A stretch of 64,000 nt of DNA from Homoserinimonas sp. OAct 916 (GTDB lineage: Bacteria; Actinomycetota; Actinomycetes; Actinomycetales; Microbacteriaceae), in contig NZ_QJHB01000008.1 in assembly GCF_003260275.1 (NCBI RefSeq), forward strand, positions 62,001 to 126,000, given 5' to 3'. Under the pieces are notes generated by a model. It was not told the origin of the DNA, did not search any database, and was given only the letters and a program-made list of their open reading frames with translations. Of this stretch, positions 2,701 to 32,410 are shown piece by piece. Made by a program: the position numbers and the translations under genes. Every line of letters begins with the position of its first letter. Positions within the stretch are counted from its first letter, which is position 1.

Positions 2701-3778
2701 CGAGCGCGATCAGCTCGTCGATCAGCGCCGGGTAGCTCATTCCGCTTTCTTGCCAGCATTTCGGGAACATGGAGATCGGGGTGAATCCCGGCATCGTGTT
2801 GATCTCGTTCAGCACGAATCCGTCGTCGCCGAGAAAGAAGTCGACCCGGGCGAGTCCGGCGCCGTCGATGGCGTTGAACGCCCGCACCGACAACTCCTGC
2901 AGCTCGGCCAGCAGCTCGCCGGTCAGGTCGGCCGGGCATTCGAGCTCCACCCCCGGTGCCGCGAGATATTTCGAGTCGAAGTCGTAGAAGTCGCGCCCCG
3001 TGAGCACGACCTCGCCGGCAACGGACGATGCCCGGGCATCGGCACCCGCGCGGCCGCCGAGCACCGCACACTCGATCTCGCGTCCGACGACCGCCGCCTC
3101 GATGAGCACCTTGTCGTCTTCGGCCAACGCCAGCGTCATCGCTGCATCGAGGTCGGCGAGCGACGCCACCTTGGAGACGCCCACGCTGGATCCGGCGCGC
3201 GCGGGCTTCACGAAAACGGGCAGACCCAGTTCGTCGAGTGCCGCGCGGGCCTTCTCGGGTGACGTGACCCAGTCGCGGGCAGAAAGCACGACCCACGGTG
3301 CCACGGCGATCCCCTCGGCCTTGAGAACCGTCTTGGTGAAGTGCTTGTCCATGCCCACCGCGGATGCCAGCACACCGGAACCCACGTAAGGCAGGTCGAC
3401 CAGCTCGAGCATGCCCTGAATCGTGCCGTCCTCGCCGAACGGGCCGTGCAGGATCGGAAAGACCACGTCGACCTGCCCTAACGAGCGCACCTGTCCCTGG
3501 GCATCCGTCGCCGTCAACTCGTGGCCGAGTGCATCGACGGGCCACGCGACCCGAGTGCCGTTGTCGGGCACTTCGGGCATGTGATCGACGTCGAATGTGT
3601 AGTCGAGAACCTCCGCACCCATCAGGACATACGCGCCGTCCCGGGTCAGACCGACCGGGATCACATCGTAACGCTCCGGGTCAAGCGCGTGGAGCACTCC
3701 CGCCGCCGTGACGCAGCTGACCGAATGCTCGCTTGAGCGTCCCCCAAAAAGTAGTGCCACCGTGAGTCTGCGAGTCAT
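2684..3778 (-). CDS. ddl: D-alanine--D-alanine ligase
   Basis: ATP-grasp ligase making D-Ala-D-Ala for peptidoglycan precursors in the cytoplasm. The 364-residue protein begins with the standard VALLFGGRSSEHSVS segment, contains PILHGPFGEDGTIQGMLEL, the PYVGSGVLASAVGMDK core and the metal/ATP site NEINTMPGFTPISMFPK near the end. The start is fixed by the family N-terminus; it lies 98 bases inside the 3' end of gpsA, which is upstream on the same strand. It is the last gene of the minus-strand run leuC-leuD-murA-plsC-gpsA-ddl, which pairs cell-wall and phospholipid precursor enzymes. Confidence 0.96.
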   Translation of the reverse strand: MTRRLTVALLFGGRSSEHSVSCVTAAGVLHALDPERYDVIPVGLTRDGAYVLMGAEVLDYTFDVDHMPEVPDNGTRVAWPVDALGHELTATDAQGQVRSLGQVDVVFPILHGPFGEDGTIQGMLELVDLPYVGSGVLASAVGMDKHFTKTVLKAEGIAVAPWVVLSARDWVTSPEKARAALDELGLPVFVKPARAGSSVGVSKVASLADLDAAMTLALAEDDKVLIEAAVVGREIECAVLGGRAGADARASSVAGEVVLTGRDFYDFDSKYLAAPGVELECPADLTGELLAELQELSVRAFNAIDGAGLARVDFFLGDDGFVLNEINTMPGFTPISMFPKCWQESGMSYPALIDELIALALDGR

Positions 3779-22369: not shown

Positions 22370-23020
22370 ATGACCCCCACCCGGATTGAAACCACCCAGG
22401 ACAACACGGTCGCTCCGGCCACCGCTGACGCACCAGCCGCTCGACGCGGTCGGCCCGGCTACGACCAGCGTGCCGTGCTACAGGTCGCGGTCACGGCGTT
22501 CAACACCCATGGCTACGAGGCCACGTCGATGGGAATGCTCGCCGACGCGTTAGGCATCAGCAAGTCGGCGATCTACCACCACGTCGCCAGCAAGGGAGAC
22601 CTGCTCCGGCTCGCGCTCGATGAGGCCCTGGGCGGCCTGGAGGGCGTACTCGCCGAACCGGGCGCGACGACCGGGCCGGTGGACGCCCGCCTCGAACACG
22701 TCATCCGCGGCGCCGTACATGTGCTGGTGGAGCGGCTGCCGTTTGTCACGCTGCTGCTGCGGGTGCGCGGCAACACCGAAGTGGAGCGGGATGCCCTCAC
22801 CCGCCGCCGCGACTTCGACCACCGGGTGGCACTTCTCGTCGACGCCGCCCGAGACGAGGGCAGCCTGCGCCAGGACGTCGATGCGCGCGTGGTCACCCGG
22901 CTGCTGTTCGGCATGGTCAACTCCATCGTCGAGTGGTACCGGCCCGATGGCCCCGAACCCGCGCAAAAACTGGCCGACGACATCGTCACGGTCGCCTTCG
23001 ACGGCCTGCACAGTCGCTGA
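22370..23020 (+). CDS. paaR: TetR family regulator, probable phenylacetate repressor PaaR
   Basis: 216-residue TetR protein. The helix-turn-helix lies in about residues 32-78 (AVLQVAVTAFNTHGYEATSMGMLADALGISKSAIYHHVASK), with the YHHV recognition-helix motif; the C-terminal part is a ligand-binding helical domain. Downstream of paaIK on the same strand, and with a shared palindrome at all three paa promoters, it is the natural candidate repressor, with phenylacetyl-CoA as the expected inducer. No copy of the operator precedes its own gene, so it may be read through from paaIK. Confidence 0.85.
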   Translation: MTPTRIETTQDNTVAPATADAPAARRGRPGYDQRAVLQVAVTAFNTHGYEATSMGMLADALGISKSAIYHHVASKGDLLRLALDEALGGLEGVLAEPGATTGPVDARLEHVIRGAVHVLVERLPFVTLLLRVRGNTEVERDALTRRRDFDHRVALLVDAARDEGSLRQDVDARVVTRLLFGMVNSIVEWYRPDGPEPAQKLADDIVTVAFDGLHSR

Positions 23021-23062: not shown

Positions 23063-23123
23063 GCGCGCCACTTGGAACGCATCGCCCCGGTTCAACCGGG
23101 CGCCTAGTGTTCCAACTGGAGCG
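23063..23123. repeat. 61-bp palindromic repeat, copy A
   Basis: Begins GCGCGCCACTTGGAACGC and ends GTTCCAACTGGAGCG; an imperfect hairpin with CCCCGGTT/AACCGGG at the tip. It matches copies B and C over exactly 61 bases. It lies 42 bases after the paaR stop and contains the stop of the frameshifted gene on the other strand. Confidence 0.85.
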
Positions 23124-23606
23124 ACCTGTGAAAATGGGCGGTCAGAGGCTCGAGTGTGATGGCTCTTGGAGGGCCGGCACCCCGGTCGCGCTTGAGATAC
23201 GCATACGGGAAGCTCGAACCGATCAGCTGCCAACCGTCGGCCACCAATCGCCTCACCGTTTTCGGCGAGATCGTCACCCGACGATGCTCCCACTGTGTGT
23301 TCGAATGGATGACGCGGTGATGGGTGGCGCCGAACTCCACGCGTGCCAGCCGTACTGTCCGGCCAGCGCCAACTCCTGCATCTCGTCGAAACTCGTGGTT
23401 GGCCCGATGGTGCGCTCATTCGGGTCGTGTGCTGCCGGCACGGCAGCCGGCGGCGCGAAGCGCTTCTGGGCCGCCTGCTTGGTCATGCCGAGCGTCGCCC
23501 CGATACTCTGCCAGGTGGCTCCCGCTGCGCGCGCCGATCCGACGGTCGTGTGCAGTCTCGCTGACCTCTGGTCGAAAGCCACGGCCGATGATGCGTGCAG
23601 CCACAC
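23104..23606 (-). pseudogene. Frameshifted DNA-binding (HTH) protein gene
   Basis: Two frames on the minus strand make one protein of about 165 residues. The upstream frame reads ARAAGATWQSIGATLGMTKQAAQKRF (helix-turn-helix) and runs to ALAGQYGWHA. The downstream frame continues VEFGATHHRVIHSNTQWEHRRV and VRRLVADGWQLIGSSFPYAYLKRD, which are the expected next segments of this actinobacterial family. The switch falls near 23338, at GCACGCGTGGAG, where one missing G would restore the frame (GCG-GTG-GAG). Either a recent inactivating deletion or an assembly error. Function unknown beyond the HTH. Confidence 0.7.
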
Positions 23607-23640
23607 GCCTCAGGACGGGCAGAAAGTGCGTCACCGGGTA

Positions 23641-23669
23641 TTGTCAAACCCTATACAGGCGCATAAAAT
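23641..23669 (+). promoter_or_regulatory. Promoter of the tetR-ABC operon, apparently leaderless
   Basis: TTGTCA at 23641-23646 and TAAAAT at 23664-23669 with a 17-base spacer. The expected start site, six to seven bases on, coincides with the ATG at 23677, and no ribosome site is present. Direct repeats ctatacaggcg and ctatacatgcg, 20 bases apart, flank the -10 and are candidate autorepressor sites. Confidence 0.65.
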
Positions 23670-23676
23670 ACTATAC

Positions 23677-24378
23677 ATGCGTGCAGTACCCTTCATTCGT
23701 AACCCTGACCTGACCACGCGCGCGCGCCTGCGCAACTCCGCCATCGAAGAGTTCGCCCTCCGCGGGTTCGACGCTTCGGTTCGCGAGATCGCGGCGCACG
23801 CCGGGGTGAGCGCAGGGCTCATCACGCACCATTTCGGTTCCAAGCAGAAGTTGCGCCAGGAGTGCGACGCCGAGGTGCTCAGCCAGTACGGCACCCTCAA
23901 GAGCGACGGCATCGCCATGTCTCCGACCCAGACGATGGCCATGATGGCCGAGCTCGACGACTATGCGCCGATGCTCGTCTACATCTTGCGCAGCGTGCGG
24001 GAGGGGGGCCCGGCAGGGGTCACGTTTCTCGAGAACATGATCGATGAGGCGGTCAGGTTCTCCGAAGAAGGAGTATCGGCCGGCATTGTGCGGCCCAGCC
24101 GAGACCCGTTGGCCCGCGCCCGCTATCTGGTCACCTCGAGTCTCGGCGGGTTACTCCTCCAGCTCTCACTTCAGCCCCAGCTCGACCTCGCCGACGTTGG
24201 ACCGACTGTGCGCCGGCTCGTCGAAGAGATCACTCTGCCCACGCTCGAGTTGTACACAGAAGGCGTCCTCGCAGACCGCCGGTACCTCGACGAATACCTT
24301 CTCCAACTCGGTGAGCCTCCCGGGGGCACGGCCACGTTCACCGCATCCACCCCACAATTTCCGGAGAGCACCCCATGA
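23677..24378 (+). CDS. TetR family regulator of an ABC exporter
   Basis: 233-residue TetR protein with N-terminal HTH ([39 protein letters not shown]) and a long TetR C-terminal domain. The stop overlaps the ATP-binding protein start as ATGA, so it is the first gene of a three-gene export operon and probably represses it in response to the exported drug. The ATG lies at the predicted transcription start, pointing to a leaderless message. Confidence 0.88.
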
Positions 24379-25298
24379 CCACTACATTCGCCGTCGACGT
24401 TCGCGGACTCACCAAGAGATTCGGTACCACACGGGCCCTCGATGGGCTCAACCTGCAGGTCGAAGCCGGAACCGTCGCCGGCTTTTTGGGCCCGAACGGA
24501 TCCGGCAAATCCACGACAATCCGCATCCTGCTGGGCCTGCTGCGGGCCGATGGTGGCGAGGCCACGCTGCTGGGCGGGGACCCCTGGCGGGATGCGGTTC
24601 AACTGCACCGCCGCATTGCCTATGTCGCCGGCGACGTGACGCTCTGGCCGAACCTCACCGGCGGCCAGACCATCGACATCCTCGGTTCGCTGCGCGGCGA
24701 CCTCGACCGCGACCGGGTGGATGACTTTCTCGCCCGGTTCGACCTCGACCCGACCAAGAAGGCACGCAGTTATTCAAAGGGCAACCGTCAGAAGGTGGCA
24801 CTCGTGGCCGCGTTCGCGAGCCGTGCCGAGCTGCTCTTTCTCGACGAACCCACGAATGGGCTCGACCCGTTGATGGAAGGGGTGTTCACCGAGTGCGTCG
24901 CCGAGGCGCGAGCCGAGGGGCGTTCAGTGCTGCTGTCGAGTCACATCTTCGCCGAGGTGGAGAAGCTGTGCGACACCGTGACGATCATCCGCGACGGCCG
25001 CACCGTCGAATCGGGCACCCTGAAGGACTTGCGTCACCTGAAGCGGTCGACGGTGACCGTGACCCTGGACAGTGATCCCGCGGCACTTGAGGCGATCGAC
25101 GGAGTGCACGACCTTATCGCCGACGGTGGGCACACGAGTTTCACCGTGGACAGCGTGGCGCTACCTCGGGTTCTCACGGCGCTGGCGGCACTCGGGCCGC
25201 GCGACCTCGTCTCGACGCCGCCGTCGCTCGAAGAACTGTTCCTTCGCCATTACGGGGTGCACGCCGCCGCCGATGATCACGAGGTGGCACGGCCATGA
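24375..25298 (+). CDS. ABC exporter ATP-binding protein
   Basis: Nucleotide-binding subunit, 307 residues. Walker A is GPNGSGKST at residues 39-47, the signature is YSKGNRQKV, Walker B is [12 protein letters not shown], and the switch histidine is in [12 protein letters not shown]. Residues from about 225 form the C-terminal extension seen in drug-export ATPases of the DrrA type. Stop and start overlap with the permease (ATGA). Substrate unknown; neighbours of this type export polyketides or other hydrophobic drugs. Confidence 0.93.
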
Positions 25299-26959
25299 GT
25301 ACACGGGTCGCGGCGCGGTCCGCCGCTCCCGACGCCGCCCTGCCTCGAGCGGGCGTGCTGGCAGATGCCGCGCTCGGGGTCGGCATCCTCATGCGTTTCA
25401 TCCTTCGCCGCAACTGGCTGCGAATGCTGATCTGGCTGATTGTTCTGGCGGGCATGGTCGTCTTGGTGATCGATTCACAACGATCACTCTTTCCCACCCA
25501 GGCCGACAGGGACGCCTATGCCAAGGTCGCGAACACTCCCGCCATCGCGGCACTGACCGGGTTGCCGTACGCGGCCGGAACACTCGGTGGCATCCTCAAC
25601 ATCAAGCTCTGGATGACCGTGGCGATCGGCCTCTCCTTCGCCGTGATCTTCATGGTCAACCGCAACGGACGTGCCGAGGAGGAGAGCGGGCGCACCGAGT
25701 TGCTTCGTTCCGGGGTGCTCGGCAAGAACGCCTACTCGCTGGCCAACTGGCTGGTGTTCTCCGCGTTCGCTGTCGTGGTCGGTCTGGCCTGCAGCGCCGC
25801 GGCCATCTCGCAGGGTCTTCCGGCCGACGGTGCGTTCGTGATGGGGGGCTCCTTCGCCGGGGTCGGATTTGTTTTCGTGGGCGTGGCTGCGATCGCCGGA
25901 CAACTGGCGCGCACCAGCCGGGGTGCCAACGCACTGGCTTCGACCGTGCTGGCTGTCAGCTACCTGATCCGGGCCGTGGCCGATGTGAATGCCACCGACG
26001 ACAGGGCGAGTTGGCTGACCTGGCTCTCCCCCATCGGTTGGGGGCAGCAGACGCGATCCTACGGGGAGAACCTGTGGTGGCCGCTGCTTCTCTGTCTGGC
26101 CGGCGGAACCCTCCTGTGCGGTATTGCCCTCGCCCTCGAGCGTCGACGGGACCTCGGCGCGGGGCTGCTGCCCGACCGGGTCGGCCCGCGCACGGCATCC
26201 GCCCTTGTTCGCACGCAGGTCGGGCTGAGCCTGCGGCTGCAACGAGGTTCGCTGATCGGCTGGACCGTGGGCATCATCGTCGGCGGCCTGTTCTTCGGCG
26301 GCGTGGCCAAAGCCATGGTTGACCTGCTCAAACCGGACAACCCGATCACCCAGGCCTTCGTCGGCGGTTCGACGAATGTGCTGGATGGCCTGCTCGGCTT
26401 CTTTCTGATGGCGAACGCGCTGCTCGTCGCGGCTTTCGTGTTGCAGAGCACCGACTCGATTCGGGCCGAGGAGGCAGCAGGGCGTACCGAGATCCAGTGG
26501 TCGTCGGCGATCTCGCGCGTGCGGTGGGCTGCTGCCCGCATGGTCGTCCCCGCAGTGGCCTCCCTCGGGCTGCTCGCGCTCAGTGGCGCCTGCGTCGGCC
26601 TCGCCTACGGCGCTGCAGTGGATGACCCGAGCCAGTCGGGCCGGTTCGCCCTGGCATCCCTGGCCTATTGGCCCACCGCTCTGCTGATGGTCGGGCTGGT
26701 GGTGTTCTGCGCCGCGGTGATCCCTCGCGCCGCCGCAGCCGTCACATGGGGCATCTACGGGGTCGTCGTGATCCTGTCGATGTTCGGCGACCTTTTCGGG
26801 CTGCCCGACTGGGTCACGAAGAACACACCCTTCACCGCAGTTCCGCGCTTGGACGAGACGTTCACGATACTGCCGCTCGTTGTGATCACCGTGCTTGTGT
26901 TGGTCGCGGGCGGGGTGGGCCTGTGGGTGCTGCAGCGGCGCGACATGGTCAGCGCCTGA
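25295..26959 (+). CDS. ABC exporter permease, polyketide-antibiotic exporter type
   Basis: 554-residue membrane protein with about twelve hydrophobic segments arranged as two similar halves. Each half carries the acidic motif [15 protein letters not shown] or [15 protein letters not shown] after a membrane pair, which marks the COG3559-type exporters next to TetR and ABC genes. It would form the channel with the preceding ATPase. Because it already has two halves, one polypeptide plus two ATPases could make the complete transporter. Confidence 0.9.
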
Positions 26960-27083
26960 GAGATCCGCCCCGGCCCAGATTCACGACCCGTCCATGGCTG
27001 AGATTCGCTCGGACCGCGCCCCAGCACTGCCACTGGTTCCGCCCAGTTTTCGAACAGGTCATGGCAGTCGATAGTGTTGTCTC

Positions 27084-28352
27084 ATGAGCACAAATTCCAC
27101 AGGAGTCAAACACGTCGTCGTCGTTGGTGCGGGCATGATCGGCCTGACCACAGCCTGGTATCTGCAGGAGCGCGGAGTGAAGGTCACTGTGGTCGATCGC
27201 ACCGGTGTCGCGGCGGGGTCGAGCTGGGGCAACGCGGGCTGGCTCACCCCGGCACTGACCCTGCCACTCGGTGAACCCTCCGTGATGCGCTCTGCCCCGA
27301 AAACGATGTTGAGCGCCTCTTCCCCGGTATACATCCCGCTGTCCCCCGACCCGAAGCTCATCCGATTCTTGATGGGGTTCGGCTGGCATTCACTTCCTCG
27401 CCAATGGCGCAAGTCCATTGGGATCTTCGCAAAGGTCAATCCGCTGGCCATGGACCCGTTCCATGAGCTCGCCGCACACGGGGTGAACGAACCGGTGCAT
27501 GAGGCCAAGCCCTTCCTCGCCGGGTTCCTCAACGATAAGGACCGTGAGGGACTCCTGCACGAATTCGCGGTCGTGAAGGAGAGTGGCGGCACGGTCGACT
27601 ACGACCTCGCCACCGGCGACGAACTGCGCGCGATCGAGCCGACCCTGTCGAATGCGGTGGCCTCGGGGGTGCTGCTGCGCGGCCAATACTTCATCGACCC
27701 GCCCAAGTACGCCAAGTCGCTTGCCGACTCTGTGGTCAGCCGGGGCGGCGAACTGATTTCCGGCTTCAACGTGGCAGACATCAAGGACACCGGCAACGGG
27801 GTCGAGGTGATTCCAGCATCCGGTTTCACCGGCGGTACCGGCCACATCAAGGCCGACGCGGTCGTCATCGCCACCGGCGCCTGGCTCGGCAAGCTCGCCC
27901 GCAAGTTCGGGGTGAAGACCATCGTCCAGGCCGGTCGCGGCTACAGCTTCAGCGTCAAGCCCGACGTGATCCCCTCGCACCCGATCTATTTTCCGACGCA
28001 GCGTCTCGCTTGCACCCCGCTCGGCGACCGCCTGCGCATCGGCGGCATGATGGAGTTTCGCGACGTCGACGCGGCACCCGATGAGCGCCGTATCAAGACG
28101 CTGGTTGACGCCGCCCGTCCGGTCTTCCAGGGTGTCGACTTCGACGCCCGACAGGAGGAGTGGGTCGGTGGTCGCCCCGTCACGGCTGATGGCCACGCCC
28201 TGATCGGCGCGACGAAATCCTCGCGGGTGTTCGTTGGCGGTGGCCACGGCATGTGGGGCATCGCGCTCGGGCCGCTCACCGGCAAACTGCTCGCCGGGGC
28301 CATCGTCGGCGAGCCCGATCCGGTGCTGAAGAACTTCAACCCGTTGCGCTGA
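27084..28352 (+). CDS. FAD-dependent D-amino-acid dehydrogenase (DadA-like)
   Basis: 422-residue DAO-family flavoprotein. The N-terminal FAD site is VVVVGAGMIGLTTAWYLQERG, followed by SSWGNAGWLTP, and a second FAD contact at VIATGAWLGKL; the C-terminal VGGRPVTADGHALIG and GGGHGMWGIALGPLTGKL segments are typical of DadA/glycine oxidase relatives. It probably deaminates small-chain D-amino acids and passes electrons to the membrane, but the substrate cannot be read from sequence. No amino-acid racemase or permease lies beside it. Confidence 0.85.
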   Translation: MSTNSTGVKHVVVVGAGMIGLTTAWYLQERGVKVTVVDRTGVAAGSSWGNAGWLTPALTLPLGEPSVMRSAPKTMLSASSPVYIPLSPDPKLIRFLMGFGWHSLPRQWRKSIGIFAKVNPLAMDPFHELAAHGVNEPVHEAKPFLAGFLNDKDREGLLHEFAVVKESGGTVDYDLATGDELRAIEPTLSNAVASGVLLRGQYFIDPPKYAKSLADSVVSRGGELISGFNVADIKDTGNGVEVIPASGFTGGTGHIKADAVVIATGAWLGKLARKFGVKTIVQAGRGYSFSVKPDVIPSHPIYFPTQRLACTPLGDRLRIGGMMEFRDVDAAPDERRIKTLVDAARPVFQGVDFDARQEEWVGGRPVTADGHALIGATKSSRVFVGGGHGMWGIALGPLTGKLLAGAIVGEPDPVLKNFNPLR

Positions 28353-28383
28353 CGGAACTGACCAGCATCGCGCTTCACGCCTC

Positions 28384-28444
28384 GCGCGCCAGTTGGAACG
28401 CTTCGCCCCAGTTCCACCAGGCGCGAAGGGTTTCATCTGGCGCG
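28384..28444. repeat. 61-bp palindromic repeat, copy B
   Basis: Begins GCGCGCCAGTTGGAACGC and ends TTTCATCTGGCGCG. Same length and layout as copies A and C. It lies 31 bases after the dadA-like stop. Confidence 0.85.
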
Positions 28445-28501
28445 ACGTGGCGAATGGTCTCAGCTGCGCACATTCGTTTCGCAGGTGTCTAGGCTTCACT
28501 C

Positions 28502-29305
28502 ATGGGCATCAATAACCTTCCCGCCGTCGCGTACGACAGCTTCATGGGTACGTACTCGGCCCTTCTCTCCCCGTTGTTCGTCGACTTCGCCGGCCTCGAC
28601 ACCGCGGCCACCACCGACAGCGGCTTGCACGGTGCGGATGCGCGGGTGCTGGATGTCGGATGCGGAACCGGGGCACTCATCGCCGAACTCCAGTCTCGTC
28701 TCGGCCCCGAAGCCATCTCTGCGATCGATCCCTCTGCGTCGTTCGTGCAGGCTGTGCGCGAGCGCTATCCGCGGGTCGATGTGCGTGTGGCGAGCGTCGA
28801 GAACCTTCCCTTTGCCGACGGCTCGTTCGACGTGACGCTGGCCCAACTCGTGCTGCCGGTCGTGACCGACCCGGTCGCGGCCCTCGAACAGATGCGACGT
28901 GTGACCCGTGGCGGCGGTGTGGTTGCGGCCAACGTCTGGGACTTTGCGGGTGCGCGCTCCCCCTTCAGCCTGTTCTGGAGCGCAGCACGAGAAGTAGAGC
29001 CGCGAATACCCGACGAATCCAACCAGCATGGGTCACGGGAAGGCTCCCTCCACGAGCTCTTCACCGCCGCGGGCCTCCACGATGTCATGGAGGTGCCGCT
29101 CGAGATCGGGGTCGAATACGGCAGTTTCGAGGAGTGGTTCGCCCCGTACGCCGGCGGGATCGGCCCCGCCGGGCGCTTCTACACGAGTCTCGAACCTGCC
29201 CGGCAGGACGAACTGCAAGCCCGTTGCCGGGCCAGGCTTCCGCCGGCCCCGTTCACCGTCACCTCGCGCGCCTGGGCAGCCCGCGGCGTTGTGGAAACTC
29301 TGTGA
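28502..29305 (+). CDS. Class I SAM-dependent methyltransferase
   Basis: 267-residue Rossmann methyltransferase. SAM motifs are VLDVGCGTGALIAEL (motif I), AISAIDPSASFV (acidic loop), VENLPFADGSFDVTLAQLVL and RGGGVVAANVWDF, the layout of Methyltransf_11 proteins. The C-terminal half (EIGVEYGSFEEWFAPYAGGIGPAGRFYTSL) is the substrate cap and does not tell the acceptor. It stands alone between repeats B and C and converges on paaZ. Confidence 0.85.
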   Translation: MGINNLPAVAYDSFMGTYSALLSPLFVDFAGLDTAATTDSGLHGADARVLDVGCGTGALIAELQSRLGPEAISAIDPSASFVQAVRERYPRVDVRVASVENLPFADGSFDVTLAQLVLPVVTDPVAALEQMRRVTRGGGVVAANVWDFAGARSPFSLFWSAAREVEPRIPDESNQHGSREGSLHELFTAAGLHDVMEVPLEIGVEYGSFEEWFAPYAGGIGPAGRFYTSLEPARQDELQARCRARLPPAPFTVTSRAWAARGVVETL

Positions 29306-29337
29306 CGACATCTCCCACACGGGCGCGCAGAACCACC

Positions 29338-29398
29338 GCGCGCCAGAGGGAACGCGTCGCCCCGGTTTGAACCGGGGCGATGCGTTCCTATTGGCGCG
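29338..29398. repeat. 61-bp palindromic repeat, copy C
   Basis: Begins GCGCGCCAGAGGGAACGC and ends GTTCCTATTGGCGCG, with an almost perfect inner stem CGTCGCCCCGGTT/AACCGGGGCGATG. It lies between the convergent methyltransferase and paaZ genes, where it could end transcription from both sides. Confidence 0.88.
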
Positions 29399-29423: not shown

Positions 29424-31505
29424 CTATTTTTTCGAGACCAGGGTGAGCACGTCGTAGGTGGCGACGATCTCGTCGTTCTGGTTGTGCAGCACGGCATCCC
29501 AGCGCACCTCGCCGTAGTCATCAGTCTCGCGCGGGGTGATCTCCTTGGCGGTTAGGGTCACCCGGATGCTGTCCCCGGGCGACACCGGCGTGATGAACCT
29601 GAGGTTCTCCAGCCCGTAGTTCGCTAGCACGGGGCCCGGTGCCGGGTCGACGAATAAGCCGGCCGCCCAACTGAGCAACAGGTAGCCGTGCGCCACCCGA
29701 CCGGGGAAGAACGGGTTGGCGGCGGCTGCCTCCTCATCCGTGTGTGCGTAGAAGGTGTCGCCGGTCGTCTCGGCGAAAGCGGTGATGTCTGCCAATTCGA
29801 CCGTGCGCGAACCGGAGGCGATCTGGTCACCCAGCTTCAGCCTCGACAGCGGCTTGCGGAAAGGATGCTCGTCACCCGCCTGCGCCCTGGCGCCAGCGTG
29901 CCACACGCCGGTGATCGCCGTCAGCATGTCAGGGGATCCCTGAATGGCGGTGCGCTGCATGTGGTGCAGCACCGAGCGGATGCCACCCAGCTCTTCACCG
30001 CCGCCGGCACGCCCCGGCCCGCCGTGCGCCAGGTGCGGCACCGGTGAGCCGTGACCGGTTGAGCTGCGCGCGTCGTCGCGGTCAAGCACGAGCACGCGGC
30101 CGTGGTTCGCCGCGATGCCCCACGCCAGCGTGCGCACCACATCCAGGTCATGGCTGACGATCGACGCGACCAGCGAGCCGCCGCCCATCGTGGCCAGGCG
30201 CACCGCGTCTTCCAGACTGTCGTAGCCGACCATCGAGGAGATCGGGCCGAACGCCTCCACGTTGTGTACGGCGTGCGCCTGAGGGTCGTCGAACTGCAAC
30301 AGCACCGGATGTTGGAAGGCCCCGTCTCCGGCGGGCCCCACACTGCCGTCGGCGCGCATGACATCGGTTTCGTCCAGCGACCCGACCACGACGCGGCCGC
30401 CACCGGAGACCAACGCATCCAGACTCTTGCGCACCTCGCCGCGCTGCTCGAGGCTTGCCAGCGGCCCCATCGTGACCCCCTCCGCGCGCGGGTCGCCGAC
30501 GACGACGCGTTCGGCGATCCGATCGGCTACCGCGTCGGCCACGTCACCGGTCACAGCGTTCGGCACGATGACGCGCCGGATGCTGGTGCACTTCTGTCCG
30601 GCCTTGACGGTCATCTCGGTCACGACCGAGCGGATGAACGCGTCGAACTCCGGGGTGCCCTTCACCGCATCCGGGCCCAGCACGATCGCGTTGAGCGAGT
30701 CGGTCTCACTCGTGAACCGCACGCCCCGGTCGGCGATCGCCGGGTGCTTCTTCAGCACCGGCACCGTCCACGACGAGCCGGTGAACGCGACCAGGTCGCC
30801 GAGCTGCAGGTGGTCGAGCAGTTCTCGGGCCGCACCGCAGACCAGTTGGAGGCTGCCGGCCGGCAGGATGCCCGACTCGACGATCATGCGCACGACCCTC
30901 TCGGTGAGGTAACTGGTCGGCGTGGCAGGCTTCACAATGGTGGGCACCCCGGCCAGGAACGCCGGTGCCAACTTCTCGAGCATCCCCCACACCGGGAAGT
31001 TGAACGCATTGATCTGCACTGCCACCCCGGTGAGCCGAGTGAAGATATGCCGGCCGAGGAATGAACCGTCCTTGGAAAGGATCTCCGGCGGCCCGTCGAC
31101 CACCACGTTGGAGTTGGGCAGTTCGCGGCGCCCCTTCGACCCGTAGGTGAACAGCACTCCGATTCCGCCGTCGATGTCGACCATCGAGTCGATCCTGGTG
31201 GCCCCGGTGACCGCCGACAATTCATACAGTTCCGGCCGGCGGGCGTTCAGGTATTGCGCGAGCTCTTTGAGCATGAGCGCGCGCTGGTGAAAGGTGTGTT
31301 CACCCAGGCCCGTCTGCCCGGTGGTGCGCGCGTATTCGATGGCCCCGGCCAGGTCGAGCCCGTCAGAGGTCACCCGAACCACCGGCTCCCCTGTGCTGGC
31401 GTCGCGCACGAGTGTTCCCTCTGTCGCGGCCGATGGGGCGACCCACTCGCCTTCGAGGTAACTGGCCACGACGGGAACGTCGGTGACTACCATGCTGCTG
31501 TTCAT
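29424..31505 (-). CDS. paaZ: Oxepin-CoA hydrolase / 3-oxo-5,6-dehydrosuberyl-CoA semialdehyde dehydrogenase
   Basis: Fusion enzyme that opens the oxepin ring and oxidises the resulting aldehyde. Residues about 1-530 are an aldehyde dehydrogenase: [14 protein letters not shown], Lys192 in VKPATPTSY, Glu267 in [10 protein letters not shown] and catalytic Cys306 in [11 protein letters not shown]. Residues about 545-693 are a MaoC-type hydratase ([30 protein letters not shown]). The ATG at 31505 overlaps the paaH stop as ATGA and has AGGAG ten bases upstream. Last gene of paaJFHZ. Confidence 0.96.
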
Positions 31506-32410
31506 AGTGATTCGGCTCCTTCTGTCGACCAATCAAAAAATCCGCGGCCACTCTTACGACCGAGTTCACCGGCGGCCACCTTCGACCGCAACAGGTCGGG
31601 CGGCCGAAACCGCTCCCCCAACTGGCTGTGCAGGTATTCGGCGATGCCGAGCCGCACGTCAAGGCCGACAATATCGGTCAGGCGCAACGGCCCGATCGGA
31701 TACTTGTAACCCAGCACCATGGCGCTGTCAATGTCTTCGGGCGAGGCGACGCCTTCTTCCACCATCCGGATCGCTTCCAGACCGATGGCCACCCCGAGTC
31801 GGGATGACGCGAATCCAGGTGCGTCATTCACCGTCACCGGGGTCTTGCCCAAGGCGGTCACCCAGTTACGCGCAGCCGCGGCGAGTATGTTGTCTGTGTG
31901 CTCGCCCAGCACGATCTCGACCAGCCCCGAGGCCGGCACCGGGTTGAAGAAGTGCAAGCCGATGAACCGGTTCGGATGCGCGAGCCCCGCAGCCAACCCG
32001 GTGATCGACAGGCTCGACGTGTTCGTGGCGATTGCCGCTTCGGGCGACACCTCGGCCTCAATGCGTGCAAGCGATGACCGCTTCAGCTCCGGGTCCTCGG
32101 GCACGGCTTCGATCACCAGCCCGGCATCGGCGAATGCGGCGGCGTCGGTTCCGACGGCAACCCGGGCCAGCAGCTCGTCCAGGCTCACCGCCAGCCCGCG
32201 CTCGATGCTCCTGGCAAGATCGCGGCGGATGCGCTCCAGCGCCGCTTGCGCCGCAGCCTCATCTCGCTCCACAACTGTGACCCGGCTGCCAGAAACCGCG
32301 AACGCGTGCGCGATCCCGGCCCCCATCCGGCCCCCGCCGAGCACGCCGACATGCTCGGGCACGCCGTCGCCGCGCCCGACATCGTCGGGTCTAGTCGTGT
32401 CTGATCTCAC
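31502..32410 (-). CDS. paaH: 3-hydroxyadipyl-CoA dehydrogenase PaaH
   Basis: NAD-dependent 3-hydroxyacyl-CoA dehydrogenase (302 residues) for the second beta-oxidation-like step of the lower pathway. The dinucleotide site is VGVLGGGRMGAGIAHAFA, the catalytic His is in GLHFFNPVPAS, and KTPVTVNDAPGFASSR plus a C-terminal DIVGLDVRLGIAEYLH region complete the fold. GTG start overlaps the paaF TGA as GTGA. Called paaC in older nomenclature. Confidence 0.93.
   Translation of the reverse strand: MRSDTTRPDDVGRGDGVPEHVGVLGGGRMGAGIAHAFAVSGSRVTVVERDEAAAQAALERIRRDLARSIERGLAVSLDELLARVAVGTDAAAFADAGLVIEAVPEDPELKRSSLARIEAEVSPEAAIATNTSSLSITGLAAGLAHPNRFIGLHFFNPVPASGLVEIVLGEHTDNILAAAARNWVTALGKTPVTVNDAPGFASSRLGVAIGLEAIRMVEEGVASPEDIDSAMVLGYKYPIGPLRLTDIVGLDVRLGIAEYLHSQLGERFRPPDLLRSKVAAGELGRKSGRGFFDWSTEGAESL

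Follow-up and report, generated by a model that had tools for sequence, protein, structure and literature searches.

The phenylacetate (paa) cluster of Homoserinimonas sp. OAct 916 (Microbacteriaceae) contains three copies of one imperfect palindrome within the 64,000-nucleotide stretch analyzed here (contig NZ_QJHB01000008.1, positions 62,001 to 126,000; "the window"), raising the question of what kind of element these copies are and what could have distributed them. We lean toward the explanation that they are Actinomycetota repeats resembling REPINs (inverted doublets of repetitive extragenic palindromic [REP] sequences), 59 to 62 bp long and built from four boxes, in which a protein joining an AbiEi-like part to a Vsr-like part takes the place of the REP-associated tyrosine transposase (RAYT). 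The three window copies, given by their symmetric cores, are as follows.

23064 to 23123, no strand: copy A, four-box palindrome, 60 bp, 43 bp past the stop codon of a TetR gene (paaR)
28385 to 28444, no strand: copy B, four-box palindrome, 60 bp, 32 bp from a DAO gene and 57 bp from a methyltransferase gene
29339 to 29398, no strand: copy C, four-box palindrome, 60 bp, between convergent gene ends, 33 bp from the methyltransferase gene and 25 bp from the paaZ stop codon

A family of four-box palindromes at gene 3' ends

An nhmmer profile built from the three copies and run on both strands of the window returned only those copies (forward E values of 1.8e-22 to 4.7e-24; next other place, E = 3.5). 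This search and the coordinates bear out the original prediction as to the three positions, the lack of a fourth copy in the window, and the placement of copy A behind paaR and copy C before the paaZ 3' end. Of the 61 bases that it gave, 60 form the symmetric core, and the 61st is a G in front of it.

Further copies, anticipated in the same prediction, are present throughout the genome, a 3.64-Mb draft of 135 contigs with the window in contig C125. A covariance model made from 19 copies found 42 places at E ≤ 10, of which 40 were retained; the two discarded matches were weak and inside predicted genes (C22:58509, 22.6 bits; C51:430524, 19.4 bits), and one retained copy (C115:32764) extends 8 bp into the start of a predicted gene. 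Since 39 of the 40 fit the 68-position model over exactly 68 bases, the length of the 60-bp core is unchanged. According to a small codon-usage gene caller made for this analysis, 19 copies have convergent neighboring genes, 16 have tandem ones, 4 have divergent ones, and 1 is at a contig end 10 bp past a stop codon, placing 36 of 40 downstream of a gene. The window's own gaps of at least 60 bp are 13 tandem, 11 divergent, and 8 convergent, and by this comparison the copies prefer gene 3' ends. They also cluster, with 8 adjacent pairs less than 3 kb apart versus 1.25 in simulations. Several close pairs are no more similar than random pairs, and because two distant pairs are also 90% identical, the 90% identity of a sibling pair on contig C11 is not unique.

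Each arm of the palindrome carries one box twice, 19 bp apart, and the arms are inverted, giving four boxes in the order >> <<. A logo pooled from 78 half-sites (excluding C62:195196, where the plus-strand match is 66 wide and the minus-strand match 68) shows two boxes, CGCGCC and TCGCSCC, at a distance of 19 bp and separated by a variable stretch, an information content ranging from 0.08 to 2.0 bits, and three invariant positions. When half-sites were sought genome-wide with up to 3 mismatches, 71 of 74 fell inside full elements (reversed-pattern control, 1); one of the others is the same element shifted by one box, and two are chance-like. No convincing lone arm, as might be expected from a miniature inverted-repeat transposable element (MITE) sharing its ends with an autonomous transposon, was found at this mismatch limit in the draft. 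Pairing between the arms is at the level expected from the alignment columns (864 versus 858 ± 8, p = 0.27; 2 of 30 positions near p = 0.05). An earlier test on 19 copies likewise placed pairing at the shuffled level, with further pair types that only 25 of 500 shuffles equalled.

The same layout with different boxes in other genera

When 80 named loci were scanned without a model, 11 hits emerged versus 0 in shuffled sequence, including Arthrobacter, Rothia, Kocuria, Galactobacter, and Promicromonospora, although two of the hits (L098 and L122) may be chance. The generic scan recovers one of the three window copies at strict settings and two of three when relaxed, where it yields 54 hits versus 10 shuffled. 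Such elements recur at 12 places in an Arthrobacter metagenome-assembled genome and 6 in Galactobacter. Model R1, applied to 49 of the 80 loci, matched one weak place (L053:6045, E 0.025).

In 12 of 13 representatives the left-arm box is repeated at 19 bp (offsets of 18 to 20 were tried); the spacing is 20 in Rothia. Over both arms, the best box match averages 7.31 of 8 bases versus 4.17 at other offsets, with 5 of the 13 representatives coming from a scan that required a box repeat. Boxes agree in 7.46 of 8 bases within an element and 4.06 between genera, the former maximized over 18 placements and the latter over 5 shifts, so that the fair control is the value of 4.17 at other offsets. The elements share their layout, and their boxes are genus-specific.

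Prauserella (L109:5728 and 2913) and Saccharomonospora (L123:14810) have palindromes of 57 to 65 bp with parts of the CAGTGAAGG/CCTTCACTG type; these may form a related class in Pseudonocardiaceae. In a Microbacterium locus, CGCGCCGAGCATGTC-like box arrays at steps of about 19 to 21 bp lie behind paaZ (L083:12040-12260).

An AbiEi-Vsr gene bracketed by palindromes

In 139 loci, the open frames near elements include one recurrent protein family, present at 11 loci in six genera; the original prediction did not anticipate a nuclease partner of this kind. Its members, of about 300 to 360 residues, are predicted from sequence comparison and a structural model to fuse a DNA-binding part like that of AbiEi antitoxins to a nuclease part resembling Vsr. 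PADLOC AbiEi models match all five proteins tested (best E, 3.7e-16), and Pfam finds AbiEi_4 in 4 of 8 proteins (one above the cut-off) and AbiEi_1 in 1; NCBIfam has no name for any of five. Residues E194, R198, D226, E237, D239, G240, K243, Y244, E262, R265, and E266 are invariant in eight sequences. In an AlphaFold2 model (predicted local distance difference test score, 90.2; predicted template modeling score, 0.88), residues 1 to 186 resemble the AbiEi antitoxin 6y8q (Z 11.5, root mean square deviation [rmsd] 6.2, 169 aligned), and residues 190 to 303 resemble Escherichia coli Vsr, 1vsr (Z 7.5, rmsd 3.3, 102 aligned). Among the matches listed, MenT-type nucleotidyltransferases also match the N-terminal part (Z 7 to 9), and residues 190 to 303 also match other restriction endonucleases (REases) and, with lower scores, R2 retrotransposon proteins in their C-terminal part.

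To quantify bracketing, 450 bp on each side of 13 AbiEi-Vsr genes was scored for a 54- to 69-bp palindrome with a box repeat at 18 to 20 bp. Nine of the 13 score 31 or more on both flanks: two in Arthrobacter, one in Galactobacter, one in genome G368 and its orthologue in G341, one each in g23 and g93, the gene of the Homoserinimonas genome itself (L159), and one in Tsukamurella (L306). In all nine, the 5' element lies 56 to 140 bp before the start codon (chosen manually) and the 3' element −37 to +44 bp from the stop codon. Seven of the 18 flanks played no part in finding the genes (the second flanks of g23, g93, and G341 and both flanks of L159 and L306). Tsukamurella L306 is a clean test of bracketing because it was found by protein similarity alone, and it is flanked by near-identical 59-bp palindromes with the box CGCTGCCG at 1809-1867 and 2966-3024. 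In Tsukamurella L304, where bracketing is not clear, GGGGGA boxes can be seen by eye at steps of about 19 bp on both sides (1800-1920 and 2930-3200). The association of this gene with palindromes in several genera is well supported.

The one AbiEi-Vsr gene found in the searched part of this genome (L159, about C135:27147-28109) has a copy of the window's family about 685 bp away but is bracketed by a different family, with CGAGWGATG-like boxes at C135:26955, 28144, and 28340 (one before the gene, two behind). No other member of the protein family turned up in the window or next to the 40 copies. This second four-box family spans L159:3555-5012 (C135:26955-28410) and occurs at 3 places, overlaps counted, in the 236,153 bases of the genome that were searched.

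AbiEi antitoxins bind inverted repeats in their own promoters. A protein of this kind at four-box sites could therefore control its own gene through the 5' copy and other genes elsewhere, with the dispersed copies acting as immobile regulatory or decoy sites. The position of the 5' element, 56 to 140 bp before the start in 9 of 9 bracketed genes, and the symmetric, position-specific conservation of the window's family, which lacks arm covariation, are both consistent with such an operator. However, a second element sits at the stop codon, the 36 copies downstream of genes far outnumber the 4 between divergent genes, copies cluster and are missing from some of the orthologous junctions in congeners, and the conserved sequence would far exceed the needs of a binding site. 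We regard a regulon of this sort as unlikely, though it is the strongest of the rivals.

A proposed route of spread

Under the REPIN-like explanation, the AbiEi-like part would read the boxes, the nuclease part would cut or nick the palindrome, repair or replication would then copy the palindrome elsewhere, and copies located at gene 3' ends would be the likeliest to survive. The family of the window may be an orphan, its copies now standing, among other places, at both ends of the insert between paaR and paaZ, or its gene may lie elsewhere. Orphan status would fit the missing arm covariation of this family.

Several points weigh against this proposal. Mobility, binding, and cutting are steps that we infer. 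A score of 31 is reached by 15 of 500 (3%) random 510-bp segments, proximity to an element led to eight of the nine bracketed genes, and 4 of the 13 genes (L304, L305, L064, and L269) are not clearly bracketed. An AbiEi-Vsr gene bracketed by the window's own boxes was found neither in the window nor beside the 40 copies (hidden Markov model search at E 1e-6; for 39 of 40 the DNA searched reached 1.4 kb or more in each direction). The Pfam MTES_1575 REase model matches only 2 of 8 proteins, below its cut-off, and 3 of 8 have no Pfam match at all; the structural match to Vsr is below the aligner's caution level of Z 8. Finally, 39 elements showed no excess of flanking direct repeats of 3 to 6 bp; the target duplication expected of a small MITE, as originally suggested, is not supported.

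A broader formulation is that Actinomycetota carry a counterpart of the REPIN/RAYT system: an AbiEi-Vsr protein that reads four boxes (19-bp pitch, 59- to 62-bp palindrome), whose gene is bracketed by two such palindromes, and that distributes tens of copies to the 3' ends of genes. Boxes would differ in specificity between genera, paralogues could own different families within a genome, and the window's family would be one of these, perhaps orphaned. We consider the case for this whole formulation evenly balanced. REPs and REPINs have been tied in the literature consulted to RAYT transposases or have no known mobilizer, and here an unrelated protein stands in the place of RAYT. If the formulation is true, a second kind of enzyme, one combining an antitoxin-type DNA binder with a repair-type nuclease, has also given rise to genome-wide palindromic repeats, and a family of proteins currently annotated as AbiEi antitoxin or hypothetical gains a function. 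It predicts that each AbiEi-Vsr protein should bind the palindrome bracketing its own gene.

Turnover of element positions among relatives

At least 11 of 398 genomes of the family Microbacteriaceae, including the one studied here, match at E ≤ 1e-5, a lower bound set by strict filters and by the use of the window's model. Another genus (g47, three species) carries a 62-bp version with 94, 67, and 68 strand-matches. Unlike in the window's family, the arms of this version covary (1968 pairs versus 1916 ± 12, reached in 0 of 1000 shuffles; 80 copies among the matches listed). Seven pairs of site regions from the genus of the window and from g47 match on one side and none on both (74 g47 regions).

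Between congeners, 9 of 33 element regions of G341 match one of 26 element regions of G228 (one weakly and one-sided), 6 G341 regions match one of 15 in G368, and 7 G228 regions match G368, with aligned flanks mostly 78 to 92% identical. Sixteen G228 stretches yielded orthologues of nine more G341 sites; one of the nine holds an element (L258:15107) and eight have no element match, one of the eight being aligned on one side only. In the reverse direction, three G228 sites checked in G341 gave one element, one absence, and one one-sided alignment. Five of the gaps could be aligned, three without an evident element and two with another palindrome that has ACACCGGTGTTCG ends. By these alignments element positions turn over, gain and loss being indistinguishable.

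The other palindrome represents a family of its own (ACACCGGTGTTCG ... CGAACACCGGTGT), seen in G228 at L270:15860-15945 and L262:5940-6025, at junctions that hold a four-box element in G341. Compared with the congeners G091 and G154, G206 has extra open frames to the left and right of a central element; two similar frames with an LANTG-type C terminus surround the element (L133), and the flanks lie close together in G091 (L135) and G154 (L140). Terminus-type sites were considered and set aside: 36 G341 sites among the matches listed look, by eye, evenly spread.

In 2 of 5 aligned cases the junction is occupied by a different palindrome, which might also be seen if the elements were bidirectional terminators (one of the roles originally suggested), or hairpins protecting 3' ends, that spread by copying. 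Placement at 3' ends, predicted folding energies of −34 to −74 kcal/mol (105-nucleotide stretches, 20 copies), arm covariation in g47, and other long hairpins seen by eye after paaZ in other genera agree with this, and stem-loops are described in PMC1590033 as generally favoring convergent gaps. Yet the window's family has no arm covariation, no T run follows directly behind the hairpins of the three window copies on the plus strand (six T residues lie 28 bp behind copy C, inside paaZ), and a long stem is missing from 12 convergent gaps that have no copy. Neither the identity of boxes 1 and 2 nor the bracketed nuclease gene would be explained by termination. This account seems to us quite improbable.

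The inserted block in the paa cluster

Genes in and beside the block between copies A and C are listed below.

22370 to 23020, plus strand: TetR regulator, paaR by position, left of the block and adjoining paaZ in relatives (Pfam TetR_N, TetR_C_24)
23677 to 24378, plus strand: TetR regulator, block gene 1 (Pfam TetR_N, TetR_C_25); start chosen manually, 23305 by the gene caller
24375 to 25298, plus strand: ABC transporter ATPase with DrrA-like C terminus, in the block (Pfam ABC_tran, DrrA1-3_C)
25295 to 26959, plus strand: ABC-2 type membrane protein, in the block (Pfam ABC2_membrane)
27084 to 28352, plus strand: flavin adenine dinucleotide-dependent oxidoreductase, in the block (Pfam DAO)
28502 to 29305, plus strand: S-adenosylmethionine methyltransferase with copies B and C on either side (Pfam Methyltransf_11)
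29424 to 31532, minus strand: paaZ, aldehyde dehydrogenase with MaoC domain, right of the block (Pfam Aldedh, MaoC_dehydratas)

In 4 of 6 Microbacteriaceae loci (L052, L060, L072, and L083) and two other Micrococcales loci (L067 and L081), paaZ and paaR are adjacent and convergent without the block. In the two Cryobacterium loci no paaR was within reach, and most Arthrobacter loci have different genes at this junction; the paaK query used in the comparison was partly out of frame (4 stops). The second TetR regulator, membrane protein, oxidoreductase, and methyltransferase of the block have no match at E 1e-15 among the 80 named loci, and the ATPase has weak matches (29 to 34%) in four. By this comparison the block is an insertion between convergent paaR and paaZ, as originally proposed. 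Neither of the two outcomes named in advance as refuting that proposal came about: the genome has further copies, and relatives lack the block. In composition, however, the block is not foreign: G+C content is ordinary, 0.635 to 0.680 versus 0.635 to 0.700 around it (1-kb steps). For the ABC-2 membrane protein, 14 of 39 other genomes contain matches at E ≤ 1e-30, with at most 50% identity, and the PaaZ protein is 70% identical to that of Glaciibacter superstes.

Recombination sites, the other role originally suggested, would be expected to bracket exchangeable gene cassettes; the copies flanking a block that is missing from relatives fit this, as does the excess of close pairs. The same can be said of one junction that holds two elements about 400 bp apart in G341 versus one element in G368. 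On the other hand, the extra frames in G206 flank a central element left and right, several near pairs resemble each other no more than random pairs do, and convergent junctions may simply tolerate insertions. We think cassette exchange very improbable, the least probable of the alternatives. Genes between other close copies (10 of 13 scanned) encode ordinary enzymes and secretion parts and include no transposase.

Between copy A and the TetR gene of the block (23140-23676), a minus-strand frame of 110 codons (23274-23606) looks by eye like a remnant. Long hairpins of unrelated sequence were seen at the paaZ 3' end in L066, L067, L081, L085, and L118 (by eye, 17 loci), with none evident in L060.

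Relation to known systems

No report of these elements, or of an AbiEi-Vsr protein with palindromes, was found among the matches listed from open-licence PMC literature. Other origins were considered and rejected. The only match to a known RNA family is sub-threshold (sX6, 18.3 bits versus 40). Two exact-pattern scans of viral contigs gave no match, nor did phages, and two 37-bp matches in Paraburkholderia plasmids were taken as chance.

Long, U-poor intrinsic terminators of Streptomyces (PMC12207403) resemble the elements as long, stable hairpins downstream of genes, but the part of that paper available describes no repeated sequence with boxes. On the protein side, the N-terminal half resembles AbiEi antitoxins of the AbiE type IV system by PADLOC models and the 6y8q fold, but is here fused to a nuclease-like part. 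The C-terminal half resembles, weakly by Pfam and by fold to Vsr, the MTES_1575 domain, which is called a Vsr-type REase in the available part of PMC3710099; there, it forms part of a much larger protein that also contains HEPN and further domains, and it is not linked to repeats.

The original description of the repeats as like REPs or bacterial interspersed mosaic elements holds in that they are a dispersed palindromic family with REP-like placement, but neither REP tags nor a RAYT accompany them. Like the GTAG- and CGTC-tagged REPs covered in part by PMC3733652, they are palindromic and lie near 3' ends, between convergent or unidirectional genes, and the CGTC REPs described there likewise have no known transposase. 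Those repeats are 20 to 40 bp, however, and the present ones are 60 to 62 bp and untagged: the 14-base stretches at either end of 39 elements contain GTAG once and CGTC not at all (complements, CTAC once and GACG five times). A RAYT (Y1 transposase, PF01797 at E 0.01), which the original prediction suggested seeking elsewhere in the genome, was found neither there nor in a set of 10 genomes, with a positive control in 6 of 14. A RAYT-driven REP was rejected on the basis of this absence and of the missing tags. The elements thus depart from REPs in tag, length, and transposase and agree with them in placement. The same source mentions untagged REP-like families in Mycobacterium tuberculosis, which means that the mere presence of REP-like repeats is no novelty in Actinomycetota.

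The closest comparison is with REPIN/RAYT systems, as far as these are set out in the portion of PMC3116915 consulted. There the partner is a Y1 transposase, the copies number in the hundreds, and the arms are without the present features of a direct box repeat at 19 bp and halves that rarely stand alone; here the partner is AbiEi-like plus Vsr-like and the copies number in the tens. Shared with REPINs are a unit that is a symmetric inverted doublet (71 of 74 half-sites here are in complete palindromes), conserved ends with a freer spacer, intergenic location, and tandem clusters that are near-identical including their flanks. A cognate DNA-processing gene beside repeat clusters is likewise common to both, and the counterpart of a gene flanked by its own repeats is seen in 9 of 13 AbiEi-Vsr genes, in families other than the window's own.

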